Positions 53,846 to 61,913 of a DNA stretch of 64,000 nt are shown one piece after another (the stretch's first letter is position 1; every line of letters starts with the position of its first letter). The translations under genes and the position numbers were made by a program. The notes under the pieces are model-generated. The model was not told the origin of the DNA. It was given only the letters and a program-made list of their open reading frames with translations, and did no database searches. The stretch is from Larkinella humicola (GTDB lineage: Bacteria; Bacteroidota; Bacteroidia; Cytophagales; Spirosomataceae), in NCBI RefSeq assembly GCF_008727875.1, contig NZ_VTWS01000003.1:866728-930727 (forward strand). The letters run 5' to 3'.

Positions 53846-53862
53846 TGTTTCCACGTGGAACA
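53846..53862. promoter_or_regulatory. ParB-site-like palindrome (parS candidate)
   Basis: TGTTTCCACGTGGAACA contains a perfect 12-bp palindrome TTCCACGTGGAA (53849-53860). It is close to the bacterial parS consensus TGTTTCACGTGAAACA and closer to the TGTTCCACGTGGAACA form known in pseudomonads, but has one extra T in the left half. It lies 30 nt before mnmG and ~4.5 kb from the oriC candidate, where parS sites commonly occur. Function is inferred. Confidence 0.45.
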
Positions 53863-53891: not shown

Positions 53892-55754
53892 ATGTTCAAT
53901 AAGTATGATGTTATTGTAGTAGGAGCGGGTCATGCCGGTTGTGAAGCTGCCACAGCAGCCGCAACGATGGGATCATCCGTTTTACTGATTACAATGAACA
54001 TGCAAACGATTGCTCAAATGTCATGCAATCCGGCGATGGGCGGTGTGGCAAAAGGGCAGATTGTTCGTGAAATCGATGCATTAGGGGGGCAATCAGGAAT
54101 CATCAGCGATAGATCGATGATTCAATTCCGAATGCTGAATCGCTCCAAAGGTCCCGCTATGTGGAGTCCACGTTGTCAAAGTGACCGCATGCTATTTGCC
54201 GCCGAGTGGCGTAAAACTATGGAAGAAACGCCCAATCTTGACTTCTGGCAGGATATGGTGACTGAAATCATCGTAAAGGACCAACGGGTTACCGGTGTAA
54301 AAACCAGCATGGGTATGGAAATTCTGGCTGATTCCGTTGTACTTACAAACGGAACATTTCTGAATGGAAAAATCTACATTGGTGAGAAAACATTCGGGGG
54401 CGGACGAACCGCGGAGCGATCGGCCACCGGCTTAACGGAACAACTCGTGCACCTCGGTTTTGAAGCAGGCCGGATGAAAACCGGTACGCCACCGCGGGTC
54501 GATGGTCGTAGTTTAAATTATAAGTTGATGGAGGAACAGCCCGGCGATGAAAACCCGGGCAAGTTTTCTTACCTCAATACAACCGCTTTAACCAAACAAC
54601 GGCACTGCTGGATCACGTATACAAACCCGGAAGTTCATGAAATTTTGAAGACCGGTTTTGAGCGTTCACCCATGTTTACAGGCCGAATTAAGGGTTTAGG
54701 CCCCCGGTATTGCCCGTCTGTGGAAGACAAAATCAACCGGTTTGCCGACAAAGATCGCCACCAGATTTTCGTAGAACCGGAAGGATGGGACACCGTCGAG
54801 GTGTACGTCAACGGTTTTTCGACTTCTTTGCCGGAAGATGTGCAGATAAAAGCCTTGCGAAAAATACCGGGTTTCGAGAATGCCAAAATGTTTCGCCCCG
54901 GCTACGCGGTCGAATATGACTACTTTCCACCGACCCAATTGAAGCAAACGCTGGAGACCCAGTTGATCGACGGGCTGTTTTTTGCCGGTCAAATCAATGG
55001 AACAACCGGTTATGAAGAAGCCGCCTGCCAGGGTTTGATGGCCGGCATCAACGCCCACAATACCGCAAAAGGTCTCGGCGAATTCACGCTGAAACGTTCC
55101 GAAGCCTACATTGGCGTGCTGATCGATGACCTGATTACGAAGGGGACCGAAGAACCGTATCGCATGTTTACGTCCCGTGCTGAATACCGAACCATTCTCC
55201 GGCAGGACAATGCCGACCTGCGTCTGACCGAAAAAGGATATAAAATTGGTCTCGCTTCGCAGGAACGGTTTGACCTCATGCAGACCAAACAGGCCAATGT
55301 AACGGCCATTCTGGATGAAATGAGACAAATGCGGGTGCAACCGGAAACCATCAACACCCTGCTGGATTCGCTGGGGAGTGCACAGATTCGGGAAAAAACA
55401 TCGCCATATGCGCTGCTAAGACGACCGGAAATTAATCGCAAAGAGCTGACCATGCTGGGCGAAAACGTTGCCGATTATCTCAATGCGTTCAACGAAGAAA
55501 CCGTTGAGGAAGCCGTGATTCTGGTGAAATACGAAAGCTATATCGAGAAGGAGAGACTGCTGGTGGAACGCACGGAAAAGCTGGAAAGCCTGATGATCCG
55601 TCCGGATTTTGACTTCGACCGGCTTTCTGCTTTGTCGTTCGAAGGGCGTGAAAAGTTGAAGCGGATCCGTCCCCAAACCATTGGCCAGGCATCGCGGATC
55701 AGCGGTGTTAGTGCTTCGGATATTTCCATATTGATGATTTATTTAGGCCGGTAA
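53892..55754 (+). CDS. mnmG: tRNA uridine-5-carboxymethylaminomethyl modification enzyme MnmG (GidA), 620 aa
   Basis: With MnmE it installs the cmnm5 group at U34 of several tRNAs. FAD motif [16 protein letters not shown] at residues 8-23, the conserved [40 protein letters not shown], and [13 protein letters not shown] in the catalytic region, ending with the C-terminal helical [17 protein letters not shown] that binds MnmE. Length fits the family (about 620-630). mnmG is typically origin-proximal in bacteria, consistent with the DnaA-box cluster at 58312-58762. Confidence 0.97.
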
Positions 55755-56703: not shown

Positions 56704-58311
56704 ATGAAACAAGCACTCGCTCTATTCGCCATTATCGTTGTTTTTCTGAACTCCTGTTCCCAGTATGCCGCACCGATTGGGGGTAAAAAAGACACCCTCG
56801 CGCCCGTTCTGGTGGTCAGCACACCCATCAATAAACAAAAGAATTTTAAAGGAAAAACCGTCGAAGTTTTCTTTAACGAATACATCCGGGTGGAGAATGC
56901 CAACCAGAAAATCCTGATCACGCCGGAGCCGGAAACACCTTTCAAAGTCAAAATCAAGCCGACCAGTTTGCGGCTCTCGTTCGACAAACCGTTCAAGGAT
57001 AGTACGACGTACACCTTCAATTTCACGGATGCCGTAAAAGACGTGACCGAAAACAACCCGGCTCTGAGCCTCAAATTGGTCTTCAGCACGGGCAACACCA
57101 TCGACTCGCTCAGGGTAGGAGGGAAGGTGACGGACATCCAGACGGGCCAGCCCACCTTGAATACATTGGTGGGACTCTACATTCCAAATGATACGCTGAC
57201 GCCCACCAAAAGCAAACCGTATTACTTCACGCGCACCGATACATCAGGGGTATTTCTATTGGAAAACGTGAAAGACGGTCGCTATAGAGTATTCGCGTTC
57301 GACGATAAAAATCTGAATTTTATCCTGAATCCAAATACGGAAAAAGTAGCTTTTCTGAAAGGTGATCTTGACCTGAAGGCAAACAATGACACCCTGAATT
57401 TGCAGTTATTTTCGTTTTACAATACCCCTCCGCGATCGGTCCGAACGCAGCAAATGGTTAACACGTATACCTATGTATTCGATCGGGGAATTGAAAAGTA
57501 TTCCATACGTTTTAACAATCCGGAGGACAGCATTCCATCGTATTTCAGAACGCCAACGGAGCTGACCTTCTTTAATGCGAAGGCAACATCGGATACGATT
57601 CGGGTGAAGATTTCAGTGACGGACTCGCTAAAAAACACGACAGAACTTACCCAGAAATTCAAGTTTCGAACCTCCACGCGCCGGGAAACGCCGGAGCCGG
57701 TAACGATCACGGCCAGGCCGACCGACAATGGAGATAGTGATCGAAACCTGGAAGTCGTGCTTGAGTTTTCGAAGCCGATGAAGCAAATCACACCGGATTC
57801 GGTACAGCTCTTTAGTGACAGCACAAACCGCATTCCGTTGACCCCGCAGGACTACCGATGGGAAGATAATCAAACCCGTTTTGTACTGACCAGGTCGACC
57901 ACCGCCCGGAACAACCTTATCCTCCGATTGGGAAGAGGAGCATTTATCAGTGCACTCAATGACTCGACGGCGCGAACGGAATTGAACTATACCATCCGTG
58001 ATCCCGAGAAATATGGCGTCCTGACGGGCCGGGTGAATACCTCGGCAAAGCAGTTTATTGTGGAATTACTGGACGAGAATTTTAAGCTGGTTGAGAAGCA
58101 ATTAAACAACCCCACCTATCGATTCGTTAACATAAAACCGGGTCGCTACCGGCTTCGGGTCATCATCGATGAGAATGGAAACGGCCGGTGGGACAGTGGG
58201 AATGTGACCGAAAACCGCTTTCCTGAACCCATCTTTTTCTTCACGAATAACAAGGGCATCATACCCATCAAGCAGAACTTCGACGTTAATGAGGATATAG
58301 ACGCCTTTTGA
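56704..58311 (+). CDS. Ig-like (Big_5/SbsA-type) domain lipoprotein (535 aa)
   Basis: I chose ATG 56704 (MKQALALFAIIVVFLNSCSQ); the upstream in-frame codon lies inside the methyltransferase gene. The lipobox Cys is residue 18 (FLNSC). The start of the mature protein (APIGGKKDTLAPVLVVSTPINKQKNFKGKTVEVFFNEYI) is the Ig-like Big_5 module common in Cytophagales lipoproteins, followed by CNA/carboxypeptidase-like modules with RYRVFAFDDKNLN. The C-terminal KPGRYRLRVIIDENGNGRWDSG is typical. It is probably an outer-membrane lipoprotein; function unknown. It ends at the putative origin. Confidence 0.85.
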   Translation: MKQALALFAIIVVFLNSCSQYAAPIGGKKDTLAPVLVVSTPINKQKNFKGKTVEVFFNEYIRVENANQKILITPEPETPFKVKIKPTSLRLSFDKPFKDSTTYTFNFTDAVKDVTENNPALSLKLVFSTGNTIDSLRVGGKVTDIQTGQPTLNTLVGLYIPNDTLTPTKSKPYYFTRTDTSGVFLLENVKDGRYRVFAFDDKNLNFILNPNTEKVAFLKGDLDLKANNDTLNLQLFSFYNTPPRSVRTQQMVNTYTYVFDRGIEKYSIRFNNPEDSIPSYFRTPTELTFFNAKATSDTIRVKISVTDSLKNTTELTQKFKFRTSTRRETPEPVTITARPTDNGDSDRNLEVVLEFSKPMKQITPDSVQLFSDSTNRIPLTPQDYRWEDNQTRFVLTRSTTARNNLILRLGRGAFISALNDSTARTELNYTIRDPEKYGVLTGRVNTSAKQFIVELLDENFKLVEKQLNNPTYRFVNIKPGRYRLRVIIDENGNGRWDSGNVTENRFPEPIFFFTNNKGIIPIKQNFDVNEDIDAF

Positions 58312-58762
58312 AAGGTCAATGTGAAATTAAAAAAACACAAGTAATCGGTGGAAAAGTGCGTGGAAAAGTTAATAATGAGTGTGGATAAAATGTGACGGGG
58401 TACAAAAATTGCTGTGGACAAACAGGTTGCGGCTGTGGATAAGAAAAAAGTAAAGTGTAGAGCGTGTACAACTCTGCTATTTTCCACAACTTATTCCTAC
58501 CTTCATCAACACGTGGAAATGTTTATAGTGTATCTTGTGGAAATGTGTCTAAAAGACCGGTGTATTCCAGAGTGTGAATGTTGATAAGAAATAAAACCTC
58601 TGGTAATCAGTATATTACATGTGGATAAGTATGTAACCAATGTGGATAAGTCAGTTTTGTTTTCCACAGAATTTTCAAACCAATGTGCATAAAGAAGTTG
58701 TCCACATATCCACAGGCAACAATCCTTTAAATCCTTTTATTCTTTAATTAATAAAAAAGAAA
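58312..58762. other. Candidate chromosomal replication origin oriC (DnaA-box cluster)
   Basis: A 451-bp non-coding interval. Five exact DnaA boxes matching TTATNCACA, all on the minus strand: 58380-58388, 58434-58442, 58620-58628 and 58641-58649 (TGTGGATAA on +) and 58684-58692 (TGTGCATAA). One-mismatch boxes lie at 58413-58421, 58480-58488, 58660-58668, 58698-58706 and 58706-58714. The right end (58718-58762) is an AT-rich tract of the kind used for duplex unwinding. mnmG and an rRNA operon lie within 6 kb. The boxes are far denser than chance (about 0.02 exact matches expected here). Alternatively it could be a DnaA-titrating locus. Confidence 0.85.
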
Positions 58763-60571
58763 ATGAAGAAGATAGTAGGACTCCTGATAATGCTACTGTT
58801 GGTGGGCTCATTGAGTGGATTTGCGCAGGAAGGAGCAGACCTGGCAGATGAATATTTCAAAAAAGGCGAATTTGAAAAAGCGCATACAATCTACCAGAAA
58901 TTGATGAAGCCCGGAGCCAGCAAGCAAATCATCAGTCGCTACGTGGAAAGCTCAGTCAAGTTGAATAAAATACCAGAAGCGGAAAAGGTGATCAGGAAGC
59001 TGGTGAAGTCGGACGACAAAAATCCGTATGTGTTTCTACAGGCCGGCATTCTCGAAGAAAGCCGGAGCGATTCGGCTAAAGCAGACGTTTACTTTAACAA
59101 AGCTATCGCCGTTGCAGGAAACGCAATGAACGGGTTGCCGGAACTGGCTCAGGATTTTGCCGAGCAAAGCAAACAGAACTGGGCCATCAAAGTATTGAAG
59201 AAGGGGCGCGAGCAAAGTCGGGAACCGCTGGCCTATGCCGGCGAACTGGCTCGCCTATATGGCGCTGTCGGGCAAAAGGAAAACATGATTGACGAATTGC
59301 TGCACTGGGGACTCATTCCGGGCAATCGTGACAATGTGCAGGCCATTTTGCAGGACAACCTGAAAGACGCCGATCAGAAGATGCTGGAGACGGTTCTGTA
59401 CAAGAAAGTGCAGGAAAATCCGAACGAGATGTTCTATACCGAGATGCTCGTCTGGTACTTAACGCAGAAGAAGGAGTTTTATAAAGCATTCATTCAGGAA
59501 CGCGCCCTCGACAAACGCTTAAAATTGACCGGTGTGCGCGTTTATGACCTGGGAGCGGTCGCACTCCAGAACAAAGATTATAAGAACGCAGCGGCCATGT
59601 TTGAGTACGTAGCGAAGGAATATCCCCAGGGGCAGCTCTATCCGTTTGCCCGGCGGCTAGTGATCAAGGCCCGGGAGGAGCAGGTAAAGAACACCTACCC
59701 GGTGGATAATCTTGAAATCCGGAAGCTCATTGCCGATTACCAGAAGATGTTTCAGGAACTGGGCAAAAACAACCGGACGCTCGAAGCCCTCCGCAGCACC
59801 GCCAGTCTGTATGCGTTTTACCTGGATGAAAAAGACACGGCTTTGACAATTCTGCAACTGGCCACCGAAATCAGCAAAAACGAAAAAGGGTTTATCGACC
59901 GGTGCAAACTGGACATGGGCGATATTTACCTCCTGAAAGGCGAACCCTGGGAAGCCACGTTGCTGTATTCACAGGTTGAAAAATCACAGAAAGAAGAGTT
60001 GCTGGGGTACGAAGCCAAGCTGCGGAATGCCCGGTTGCATTACTACAAAGGCGAATTTGAGCTATCGAAAGATGTGCTGGATATTCTGAAGCAAGCCACC
60101 AGCCGGGAAATTGCCAACGACGCCGGGGCACTCAGTTTGCTCATTATGGACAATACCGGCATGGATTCGGATAGCAACGAAACCGCCATGAAAGAATACG
60201 CTTCCATTGAGCTGATGTTGTTTCAGAACAAAGTCGATTCGGCCGCGCTGGAACTCAACCGGTTGTATGCCAAATACAAAGACCACAGTCTGGCCGACAA
60301 CATTTTGTGGCTGCGGGCCAATACGCTGATCAAGCAGAATAAGATCGATGAAGCCCTGCAGGATCTGGAAAAAATCTCGGCCAACTACGGAGAAGATGTT
60401 CTGGGCGACGACGCGCTTTTTTTGACGGCCAAAACGTACGAGGAAAACAAACAGGATAAGCCGAAAGCGATGGAACTCTACAACCAGCTTTTACAGAAAT
60501 ATCCGGGAAGTATTTTTGGCGCCGACGCCCGAAAGCGGTTTCGAGCCTTGCGGGGAGACACCATCAATTAA
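58763..60571 (+). CDS. Secreted tetratricopeptide-repeat protein (602 aa)
   Basis: A signal peptide (MKKIVGLLIMLLLVGSLSGFAQ) precedes an all-helical protein of TPR-like repeats: DEYFKKGEFEKAHTIYQKLMKP, VRVYDLGAVALQNKDYKNAAAMFEYVAKEYPQGQLYPFAR, NILWLRANTLIKQNKIDEALQDLEKIS, DALFLTAKTYEENKQDKPKAMELYNQLLQKYPGS. It is probably a periplasmic scaffold for an envelope complex, with no catalytic motif. It is the first gene right of the oriC candidate and transcribed away from it; its promoter must lie within the DnaA-box region. A strong terminator follows. Confidence 0.9.
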   Translation: MKKIVGLLIMLLLVGSLSGFAQEGADLADEYFKKGEFEKAHTIYQKLMKPGASKQIISRYVESSVKLNKIPEAEKVIRKLVKSDDKNPYVFLQAGILEESRSDSAKADVYFNKAIAVAGNAMNGLPELAQDFAEQSKQNWAIKVLKKGREQSREPLAYAGELARLYGAVGQKENMIDELLHWGLIPGNRDNVQAILQDNLKDADQKMLETVLYKKVQENPNEMFYTEMLVWYLTQKKEFYKAFIQERALDKRLKLTGVRVYDLGAVALQNKDYKNAAAMFEYVAKEYPQGQLYPFARRLVIKAREEQVKNTYPVDNLEIRKLIADYQKMFQELGKNNRTLEALRSTASLYAFYLDEKDTALTILQLATEISKNEKGFIDRCKLDMGDIYLLKGEPWEATLLYSQVEKSQKEELLGYEAKLRNARLHYYKGEFELSKDVLDILKQATSREIANDAGALSLLIMDNTGMDSDSNETAMKEYASIELMLFQNKVDSAALELNRLYAKYKDHSLADNILWLRANTLIKQNKIDEALQDLEKISANYGEDVLGDDALFLTAKTYEENKQDKPKAMELYNQLLQKYPGSIFGADARKRFRALRGDTIN

Positions 60572-60608: not shown

Positions 60609-61913
60609 TCAGGCGGTTTGCAGAAGGAAATCTTTAAACTCCGCAAAATCAGCCTTCATTTTAAAACTGCTTTTTGGCCGGTTCATCAATTCTTCCAAAG
60701 CCGCCGGGATATCCACAGGCGTGTGGATAACTGACTCGACCAGCTCTTTGAACTTGGCCGGATGAGCCGTGGCCAGCGTTATTCCACACACATCCGGGTT
60801 GGTTTGTTGATAACGTTGTAAACCGAGGTAACCGACCGCCGTGTGTGGGCACATCACGTAGTTGAATTGTTGATAAACAGCCGCCATGGCTTGTTTGGTC
60901 TGCTCATCATCGAAGAAATAACCGGATAAAACGTGTTTCAACGTTTCAAAATTATCGTTGAACAAGTGGGTAAGGCGCACGAAATTGCTCGGACTTCCCA
61001 CATCCATCGCGTTCGAAATGGTTTCAACCGACGGTTTGGGCTCGTATACGCCCGTTTCCAAATACTTCGGAACCACGTAGTTCAGGTTCGTCGACGCAAT
61101 GAACTGTTGAACGGGAAGTCCCATTTTGTAAGCTAACGCCCCCGCACTCAGATTACCGAAATTGCCGCTGGGCGTCGAGAAAACCACCGGTTTTCCCAAA
61201 TGCTTCACCTGTCCATAGGCCCGGGCGTAGTAAAAGCTTTGCGGAATCAGGCGGAAGATGTTGATGGAGTTGGCCGACGCCAGGCTAAACTGCTGATTCA
61301 ATTCAGAATCGGTAAAGGCGGTTTTCACCAGCGCCTGACAATCATCAAACGAACCGTCGACTTCAATGGCCGTAATATTTTGCCCCAGAGTCGTTAACTG
61401 CTTTTCCTGCAACTCACTGACCCGACCGGTGGGATACAGAATCGTCACTTTGATACCGGGAACACCCAGAAAGCCCATGGCCACGGCACCACCCGTATCA
61501 CCGGACGTCGCGACCAGGATATGCACTTCCCGGTTCGATTTTTCCAGATAATAGCCCATCATGGCCGCCATATAGCGGGCGCCCACATCTTTGAAAGCCA
61601 GCGAAGGTCCGTGGAACAACTCCAGAACGTGCGTTTTTCCGTCTTCGAGTGCCACCACGGGCGTATCGAATGGAAAAGCGTGGTGAACCAGTTCTTCCAG
61701 TTTCGCGGTTGGAATAGCGTCTTTAAAAAGCGCCGAGCTGATTTGAAAGCCAATATCGGCCAGTGAGCCGCCGGAAATGGAATTGAAAAAATCCGCGCCC
61801 ATCGCTGGGATCGTTTCCGGCATATAAAGGCCCCGGTCTGCTGGCAAACTGCGGAGCAACGCTTCTTCCATCGAAACCCGGACAGAAGGATTATTCGTAC
61901 TGTAAAACTTCAT
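60609..61913 (-). CDS. thrC: Threonine synthase (434 aa)
   Basis: A PLP enzyme converting O-phospho-homoserine to threonine. PLP lysine Lys108 in HGPSLAFKDVGARYMAAMM, the phosphate-binding region VATSGDTGGAVAMGF, PTGRVSELQEKQLTTLGQN, and STPSGNFGNLSAGALAYKMG. The N-terminal MKFYSTNNPSVRVSMEEALLRSLPADRGLYMPE is characteristic of the short (bacterial/yeast type) synthases. The length is normal. It appears monocistronic; homoserine kinase genes are not in the window. Confidence 0.96.
   Translation of the reverse strand: MKFYSTNNPSVRVSMEEALLRSLPADRGLYMPETIPAMGADFFNSISGGSLADIGFQISSALFKDAIPTAKLEELVHHAFPFDTPVVALEDGKTHVLELFHGPSLAFKDVGARYMAAMMGYYLEKSNREVHILVATSGDTGGAVAMGFLGVPGIKVTILYPTGRVSELQEKQLTTLGQNITAIEVDGSFDDCQALVKTAFTDSELNQQFSLASANSINIFRLIPQSFYYARAYGQVKHLGKPVVFSTPSGNFGNLSAGALAYKMGLPVQQFIASTNLNYVVPKYLETGVYEPKPSVETISNAMDVGSPSNFVRLTHLFNDNFETLKHVLSGYFFDDEQTKQAMAAVYQQFNYVMCPHTAVGYLGLQRYQQTNPDVCGITLATAHPAKFKELVESVIHTPVDIPAALEELMNRPKSSFKMKADFAEFKDFLLQTA

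Follow-up and report, generated by a model that had tools for sequence, protein, structure and literature searches.

A predicted chromosomal replication origin beside a TPR-repeat gene in Larkinella and related Spirosomataceae, with a possible second set of DnaA boxes in coding DNA

Introduction

Models of the bacterial replication origin come largely from Proteobacteria and Firmicutes. In Bacteroidota, the majority of assigned origins are computer predictions; mnmG (gidA) is a common neighbor of origins. In the family Flavobacteriaceae, the origins of Mariniflexile and Algorimicrobium were predicted beside mnmG with Ori-Finder 2022, in line with GC skew, and the Mariniflexile origin is described as not lying at dnaA (PMC11278836, PMC12843772). 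In the Mariniflexile paper, the text and a figure legend conflict over which genes mark oriC and which mark ter (PMC11278836). A mismatch between the positions of the origin and dnaA was also noted among gut bacteria, in a set that included Bacteroidota (PMC10197239). Closer to the organism considered here, the oriC plasmids of Cytophaga hutchinsonii (Xu et al. 2012), which represent a fellow Cytophagales origin, are cited as the basis of replicative plasmids. Among the open papers listed, judged by titles and abstract openings, no report was found of an origin study in Spirosoma or Dyadobacter or of a TPR-linked or bipartite origin in Bacteroidota, and the text of the Spirosoma linguale genome paper contains neither "origin" nor "dnaA."

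Two further types of described origin bear on the comparison. In the bipartite origins of Bacillus subtilis and Helicobacter pylori, clusters of DnaA boxes are separated by dnaA, and looping has been reported (PMC8235120); according to a review, the spacer of bipartite origins is usually dnaA (PMC4285127). Boxes 6 and 7 of B. subtilis, located by the unwinding region, are fused or overlapping and have been paired with ts1 and ts2 of H. pylori (PMC8235120). The basal unwinding system is described as consisting of boxes, a GC-rich spacer, and DnaA-trios, the limit being at least three trios within 16 bases of a box (PMC8287927).

Here we describe a candidate oriC in Larkinella. Like the predicted origins of Mariniflexile and Algorimicrobium, it is found near mnmG; unlike them, it occupies a gap about 2.6 kb past mnmG and immediately before a gene for a TPR-repeat protein, and its layout, its parS-like site, and its neighbors were compared across 80 relatives.

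Results

Setting of the candidate origin

The window, meaning the whole stretch of 64,000 nucleotides that was analyzed, is the right end (positions 866728 to 930727) of a 930,727-bp contig (C14) in a Larkinella genome (Spirosomataceae, Bacteroidota) that comprises 7.86 Mb in 20 contigs and is 99.8% complete. The features discussed below are collected in Table 1. The nearest proteins to the TPR-repeat protein, with its own entry excluded, were from Larkinella (up to 99% identity). DnaA scoring above the NCBIfam cutoff is encoded on a different contig (C3) from the gap. An initial interpretation made from the letters of the window (here called the sequence-only reading) held that there was no open frame in the gap; a mechanical 113-amino-acid frame on the minus strand (58146 to 58487) does overlap its left part, but nothing marks this frame as a gene. 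The same reading placed mnmG and an rRNA operon nearby, and whereas mnmG is present, the operon is absent from the window, where neither rRNA nor tRNA genes were found in the 64 kb searched. rRNA genes were located downstream of the TPR gene in 5 of the 7 relatives searched, and the contigs of 59 of 80 relatives end 5.0 to 5.75 kb past the TPR start, as does the contig that holds the window. Because most of the relatives searched have rRNA genes after the TPR gene and most of the 80 contigs break at a like distance, an rRNA operon probably sits just past the end of the window, and it is probably the cause of the contig end. To the right of this break, the genome was traced through C12 (7,959 bp) and, by synteny, C15.

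Table 1. Features of the candidate origin region (positions in the window)
Feature	Position	Strand	Remarks
parS-like site GTTTCCACGTGGAACA	53847..53862		Directly upstream of mnmG; 4.9 kb upstream of the gap
mnmG (gidA)	53892..55754	+	Start 4.9 kb upstream of the TPR gene
Main origin region (candidate)	58312..58762		451-bp intergenic gap; Ig-like-domain gene stop at 58311, TPR gene start at 58763
DnaA box TTATCCACA	58380..58388	-	Exact match
DnaA box TTGTCCACA	58413..58421	-	One mismatch
DnaA box TTATCCACA	58434..58442	-	Exact match; TGTGGATAA invariant in eight Larkinella aligned
DnaA box TTTTCCACA	58480..58488	+	One mismatch
Two GTGGAAATGT copies	58513..58546		24 bases apart; invariant in eight Larkinella aligned
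DnaA box TTATCAACA	58579..58587	-	One mismatch
DnaA box TTATCCACA	58620..58628	-	Exact match
DnaA box TTATCCACA	58641..58649	-	Exact match; TGTGGATAA invariant in eight Larkinella aligned
DnaA box TTTTCCACA	58660..58668	+	One mismatch
DnaA box TTATGCACA	58684..58692	-	TTATNCACA match
Fused box pair TTGTCCACA/ATATCCACA, then G	58698..58715 (pair, 58698..58714)	+	One shared base; faces the AT-rich tract
AT-rich tract	58716..58762		Candidate DNA unwinding element; 81% AT
TPR-repeat protein gene	58763..60571	+	602 amino acids; conserved origin neighbor; spacer between the two box clusters
thrC, threonine synthase	60609..61913	-
Second box cluster, 3' end of thrC	60709..60876		ATATCCACA (+, 60709); TTATCCACA (-, 60722); TTATCAACA (-, 60805 and 60868)
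End of window and contig	64000		In 5 of 7 relatives searched, rRNA genes come next on this flank of the TPR gene

A cluster of DnaA boxes in the gap

The gap contains four exact copies of TTATCCACA, compared to an expectation of 0.012 (1,000 dinucleotide shuffles; largest count, 1), and 11 boxes with no more than one mismatch to it, compared to an expectation of 0.275 (1,000 shuffles; largest count, 3). Eight matches to TTATNCACA were counted in the whole window against 1.42 expected, a number reached in none of 100 shuffles. Genome-wide, TTATCCACA occurs 53 times in 7.86 Mb and a backward control pattern occurs 44 times; single TTATCCACA sites are therefore background. A genome-wide search for box clusters had been suggested as a check in the sequence-only reading; run with TTATCCACA, it returned no other group of four within a few hundred bases, and four copies within 270 bases were found nowhere in the genome except at the gap. 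As for smaller groups, a box pair near the end of C13 was considered as a rival origin and rejected, since it belongs to a repeat-like element; pairs in C14, C15, and C19 and box groups in four relatives (G097, G026, G034, and G004) are located in other genes or gaps. Two of the TTATCCACA pairs in the genome (C13:1052614-1052818 and C19:14675-14782) lie in look-alike "GGATT...ATCCGGGGTTATCCACA" elements, and one (C14:656647-656726) lies inside an inverted repeat.

The composition of the cluster differs in part from its first description, which listed five boxes in a single orientation, four of them strong, plus five more with one mismatch, and which suggested that the orientation and spacing of the boxes may define a lineage-specific architecture. 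Five TTATNCACA matches (at 58380, 58434, 58620, 58641, and 58684) are indeed on the minus strand, but when all 11 boxes are considered, 7 are on the minus strand and 4 are on the plus strand. Since the plus-strand boxes are not only present but better conserved, the single-orientation architecture is not supported. Seven boxes carry one mismatch to TTATCCACA; with TTATGCACA among them, the number of further boxes is six rather than five. The GTGGAAATGT pair has no match to a DnaA box within one mismatch and may be a weak target of DnaA or the target of a different protein.

A fused box pair adjoining an AT-rich tract

Within the region, conservation is highest at the fused pair of plus-strand boxes, which the sequence-only reading overlooked. 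When eight Larkinella gaps were aligned, with the gap of a further relative (G026) as the ninth row, the strongest block was TTGTCCACATATCCACAG; CACATATCCACAG was kept in 8 of 8 Larkinella, and in L. arboricola the first box of the pair is TTATCCACA. When an 18-letter consensus of the pair was used for scoring, 67 of 81 loci scored 24 or more out of 28; the median was 26, compared to 20 for the median of the highest scores in shuffles. The score shows spread and not independent discovery, because the consensus was drawn from the same loci. A strict tandem-pair pattern with CCACA required in both boxes was present in only 12 of the 81 loci.

The AT-rich tract reported at the right edge of the gap was confirmed, with 78% AT in the last 50-base step, compared to 58 to 70% in the other steps, and with the value given in Table 1 over 58716 to 58762. 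Judging from its composition, this tract is a candidate DNA unwinding element. The fused pair directly adjoins it, so that, as in the basal unwinding system, tandem boxes are aimed at an AT-rich tract; moreover, five NTN triplets in a row are found in the window 16 bases past the second box of the pair (shuffle p = 0.03), inside the published limit (PMC8287927). In contrast to that system, the run was not kept in L. rosea and L. terrae, where it is only two triplets long, and over 81 loci the opposite-strand triplets were equally long (mean, 4.02 versus 3.59; shuffles, 2.52). For these two reasons, DnaA-trios are not claimed. The arrangement also resembles that of B. subtilis, in which fused boxes are the ones nearest the unwinding region (PMC8235120), the likeness being one of layout.

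Conservation of the boxes before the TPR gene

For the comparison with relatives, 80 of the 292 loci found were kept. Within the 800 bp upstream of the TPR gene, at least three TTATNCACA were present in 70 of the 80 loci and at least one in 79 (median, 6), and at least one TTATCCACA was present in 74 (median, 3.5). Between -5,500 and -1,000 of the TPR gene, no TTATCCACA was found in any of the 80 loci. A Persicitalea locus (L063) lacks TTATNCACA over these 800 bp, and a single-contig genome of the same family (G021) has no TTATCCACA before the gene and two located 4.3 kb after it. In the wider order, the TPR profile was matched in 55 of 59 genomes, and 29 order-level loci, with that of the window left out, had 79 TTATCCACA upstream of the TPR gene, 6 inside it, and 4 downstream. 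At least three upstream boxes occurred in 6 of the 13 families represented by these loci; since the other families had one or none, the link between box and TPR gene is not order-wide in this form of the box.

Two side observations were made in the relatives. The origin region of a record titled "Flavobacterium sp. SUN052" (L064) looks like that of Spirosomataceae, with a TPR identity of 56% and a parS-like site at -3.3 kb, and the title may be wrong. In G026, three TTATCCACA exactly 21 bases apart were seen within an open frame that precedes the TPR gene by about 28 kb (L258:5842-5892).

A parS-like site near the gap

Of the 80 relatives' loci, 71 carry the pattern TT[TC]CACGTG[AG]AA, located 3.3 to 5.3 kb upstream of the TPR gene. 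No such site was found upstream of the gene in any of 8 Runella, and at one locus (L095) the sole match is inside the gap, at -252. In 60 stretches totaling 1.17 Mb from three relatives, the only match was beside the TPR gene of a Larkinella (G097). When two mismatches were allowed, the parS pattern was found at 13 places in the window's own genome and the backward control at 25, which is background; the parS claim therefore rests on conservation. The best parS match in this genome (C15:20009) has one mismatch, and the gene next to it has orthologues about 43 and 44 kb past the TPR gene in G097 and G026, respectively; in G004, the orthologue is on the opposite side of the TPR gene, at a distance of about 40 kb. 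One gene in the genome encodes ParB above the cutoff. By sequence, the genome thus has the two features expected of a ParABS origin region, namely, a parS-like site close to the candidate origin and a gene for ParB.

GC skew

A switch of GC skew at the locus, another check that had been proposed, was found as a sign change in sampled stretches of three single-contig relatives, one of them a Larkinella; the contigs of the window's own genome agree but are blurred. Because 20-kb stretches were sampled (one per 280 to 350 kb in G026 and G004 and unevenly in G097), the placing is coarse. In the Larkinella (G097), 10 stretches to the left had a mean skew of -0.023, with one positive, and 8 stretches to the right had a mean of +0.028, with no overlap of values (Mann-Whitney p = 4.6e-5; 18 of 20 stretches, with the stretch at the locus left out). 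The corresponding left and right values were -0.018 and +0.024 in G004 (p = 0.0006) and -0.014 and +0.017 in G026 (p = 0.007), each from 10 plus 10 stretches. On C14 to the left of the gap, 16 of 20 sampled stretches were negative (mean, -0.019) and 4 were positive, up to +0.030 at 810 to 830 kb. Skew was positive in the final three 8-kb blocks of the window and in 3 of 3 stretches of C15, which belongs to the right side by synteny with G097 and G026. The blurring is seen in the cumulative minimum within the window, which falls at 27 kb.

DnaA boxes in coding DNA and a possible split origin

Beyond the TPR gene, the 3' end of thrC carries four boxes, one exact and three with one mismatch, in 168 bases. 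Only 0.70 boxes were expected in thrC, and none of 1,000 synonymous-codon shuffles reached four; among the 22 window genes tested, this was the sole gene with an excess, none being found in the other 21 (lowest p = 0.25; 100 shuffles each). All 8 Larkinella keep the exact thrC box and at least one further box. In the sister genera, boxes occur inside the TPR gene itself: 60 TTATCCACA were counted in 80 loci, compared to 12.8 expected, and with one locus per genus the count was 10.8, compared to 1.5 under a synonymous-codon null and reached in none of 1,000 draws. The one-per-genus test covered 11 genera and 75 of the 80 loci, the 5 loci whose titles gave no usable genus being dropped. The extra boxes were found in Spirosoma, Fibrisoma, Runella, and others. 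In two Spirosoma loci (L066 and L073), a terminator-like hairpin just past the TPR stop has TTATCCACA on one side and the inverse of this box on the other, so that the outer stem would consist of DnaA boxes.

The same trend was evident in stop-to-stop frames around the locus. The first minus-strand frames downstream held 11 boxes, compared to 1.1 expected (71 frames), and the plus-strand frames downstream held 17, compared to 2.1 expected (82 frames). Upstream, the nearest frames held 8 boxes, compared to 2.4 expected, an excess that perhaps comes from frames running into the gap, and the farther frames held 3, compared to 3.9 expected. Since the downstream excess exceeds the upstream one, boxes reach through or past the TPR gene more than they extend upstream of the gap.

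The gap and the thrC cluster thus form two box clusters with a gene between them and with the candidate unwinding region by one of them, as in the bipartite origins of B. subtilis and H. pylori (PMC4285127, PMC8235120). Unlike in those origins, the spacer is the TPR gene, and not dnaA, which is the usual although not a required spacer and which in this genome is on C3; likewise, the second cluster lies within the coding end of thrC. We put at about even the chance that the thrC cluster and, in the sister genera, the boxes inside the TPR gene take part in a bipartite origin with the TPR gene as its spacer.

A nearly even chance attaches to the explanation that the origin is simple and confined to the gap, so that the boxes in thrC and the TPR gene would be by-products of codon use or shared descent and would have no role. 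Most of the origins studied are described as continuous (PMC4285127), loci of the same genus are not independent, and the thrC test was run after the cluster had been noticed. Moreover, seven Larkinella TPR genes that were tested have no exact box, nor do those of Siphonobacter; among 33 Dyadobacter, one TTATCCACA was found inside the TPR gene, and both of the latter genera are at or below expectation. The restriction of the excess to thrC among the genes tested argues against a by-product of codon use, as does the excess inside the TPR gene, which persisted when each genus was represented by a single locus. In thrC, invariant codons run for at most five in succession, and this longest run can be read either way: it covers 8 of the 9 bases of the exact box at 60722, but a run of this kind anywhere in the gene is by itself only mildly unusual (P = 0.04).

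Discussion

On the basis of these sequence comparisons, we consider it very likely that the gap is the chromosomal oriC of Larkinella, as had been proposed. The proposal is supported by a dense group of boxes that is unique in the genome, by the adjoining AT-rich region, by the presence of boxes before the TPR gene in relatives, by the skew switch in single-contig relatives, and by a conserved position and context consisting of mnmG, the parS-like site 4.9 kb away, the TPR gene, and, in 5 of 7 relatives, an rRNA operon. At such an origin, DnaA would fill the 11 boxes of the gap, and the fused plus-strand pair at 58698 to 58714 would steer it onto the adjoining AT-rich tract, which would then melt and allow the replicative helicase to be loaded. 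ParB bound at parS would segregate the new origins. The thrC cluster may also be occupied by DnaA and be brought to the main cluster by looping, by analogy with what has been reported for B. subtilis and H. pylori.

Two other explanations place the start of the chromosome elsewhere. The cluster could be a DnaA-controlled promoter of the TPR gene, inasmuch as the boxes are immediately upstream of the start of that gene and recur there across Spirosomataceae and several other Cytophagales families. This is very improbable, since 11 boxes, a tract of 81% AT, a skew switch in three relatives, a parS-like site, and the lack of a second four-box group in the genome all fit an origin better and since a promoter leaves the boxes after the TPR gene unexplained. 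datA and DARS of Escherichia coli are sites that titrate or reactivate DnaA. A reservoir of this sort near an origin situated tens of kilobases away is the least probable explanation: the sampled stretches cannot resolve places 30 kb apart, the cumulative skew minimum of the window lies about 31 kb to the left of the gap, and G097 has a second group of four TTATCCACA, but no group of four boxes corresponds to it in the window's genome, the gap in which it lies is 53% AT and reaches at most 74% over 47 bases, compared to 81% here, and what the relatives have in common is the cluster at the TPR gene. The four boxes of the G097 group (L256:6135-6244) fall within 110 bases; the gap that contains them measures about 240 bases, separates two frames, and is 32 kb upstream of the TPR gene. 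This group is possibly itself a DnaA reservoir.

The gap as oriC would be an origin of a known kind; what would be new is a split arrangement in which a TPR gene is the spacer and boxes are embedded in coding sequence. Slightly short of even odds, in our judgment, is the broader proposal that Spirosomataceae have a split origin in which the TPR gene is the spacer and working DnaA boxes lie in coding DNA, within the TPR gene in Spirosoma, Fibrisoma, Runella, and others and at the 3' end of thrC in Larkinella. The codon choice of two ordinary genes would then be held by replication control, and a bipartite layout without dnaA would be a lineage-wide plan of Bacteroidota origins.

For the family, the analysis provides a well-supported origin with a recurring map, which runs from the parS-like site through mnmG, the box cluster, the TPR gene, and the second boxes to, in several relatives, the rRNA operon. 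The map can serve as a guide for closing assemblies, because the contigs of 59 of 80 relatives break at a similar distance past the TPR start, and the locus offers a fragment that could be tried in origin plasmids for Larkinella, Spirosoma, and Dyadobacter. A split layout, if real, would test the need for dnaA as the spacer of a bipartite origin and would show DnaA sites constraining coding sequence.
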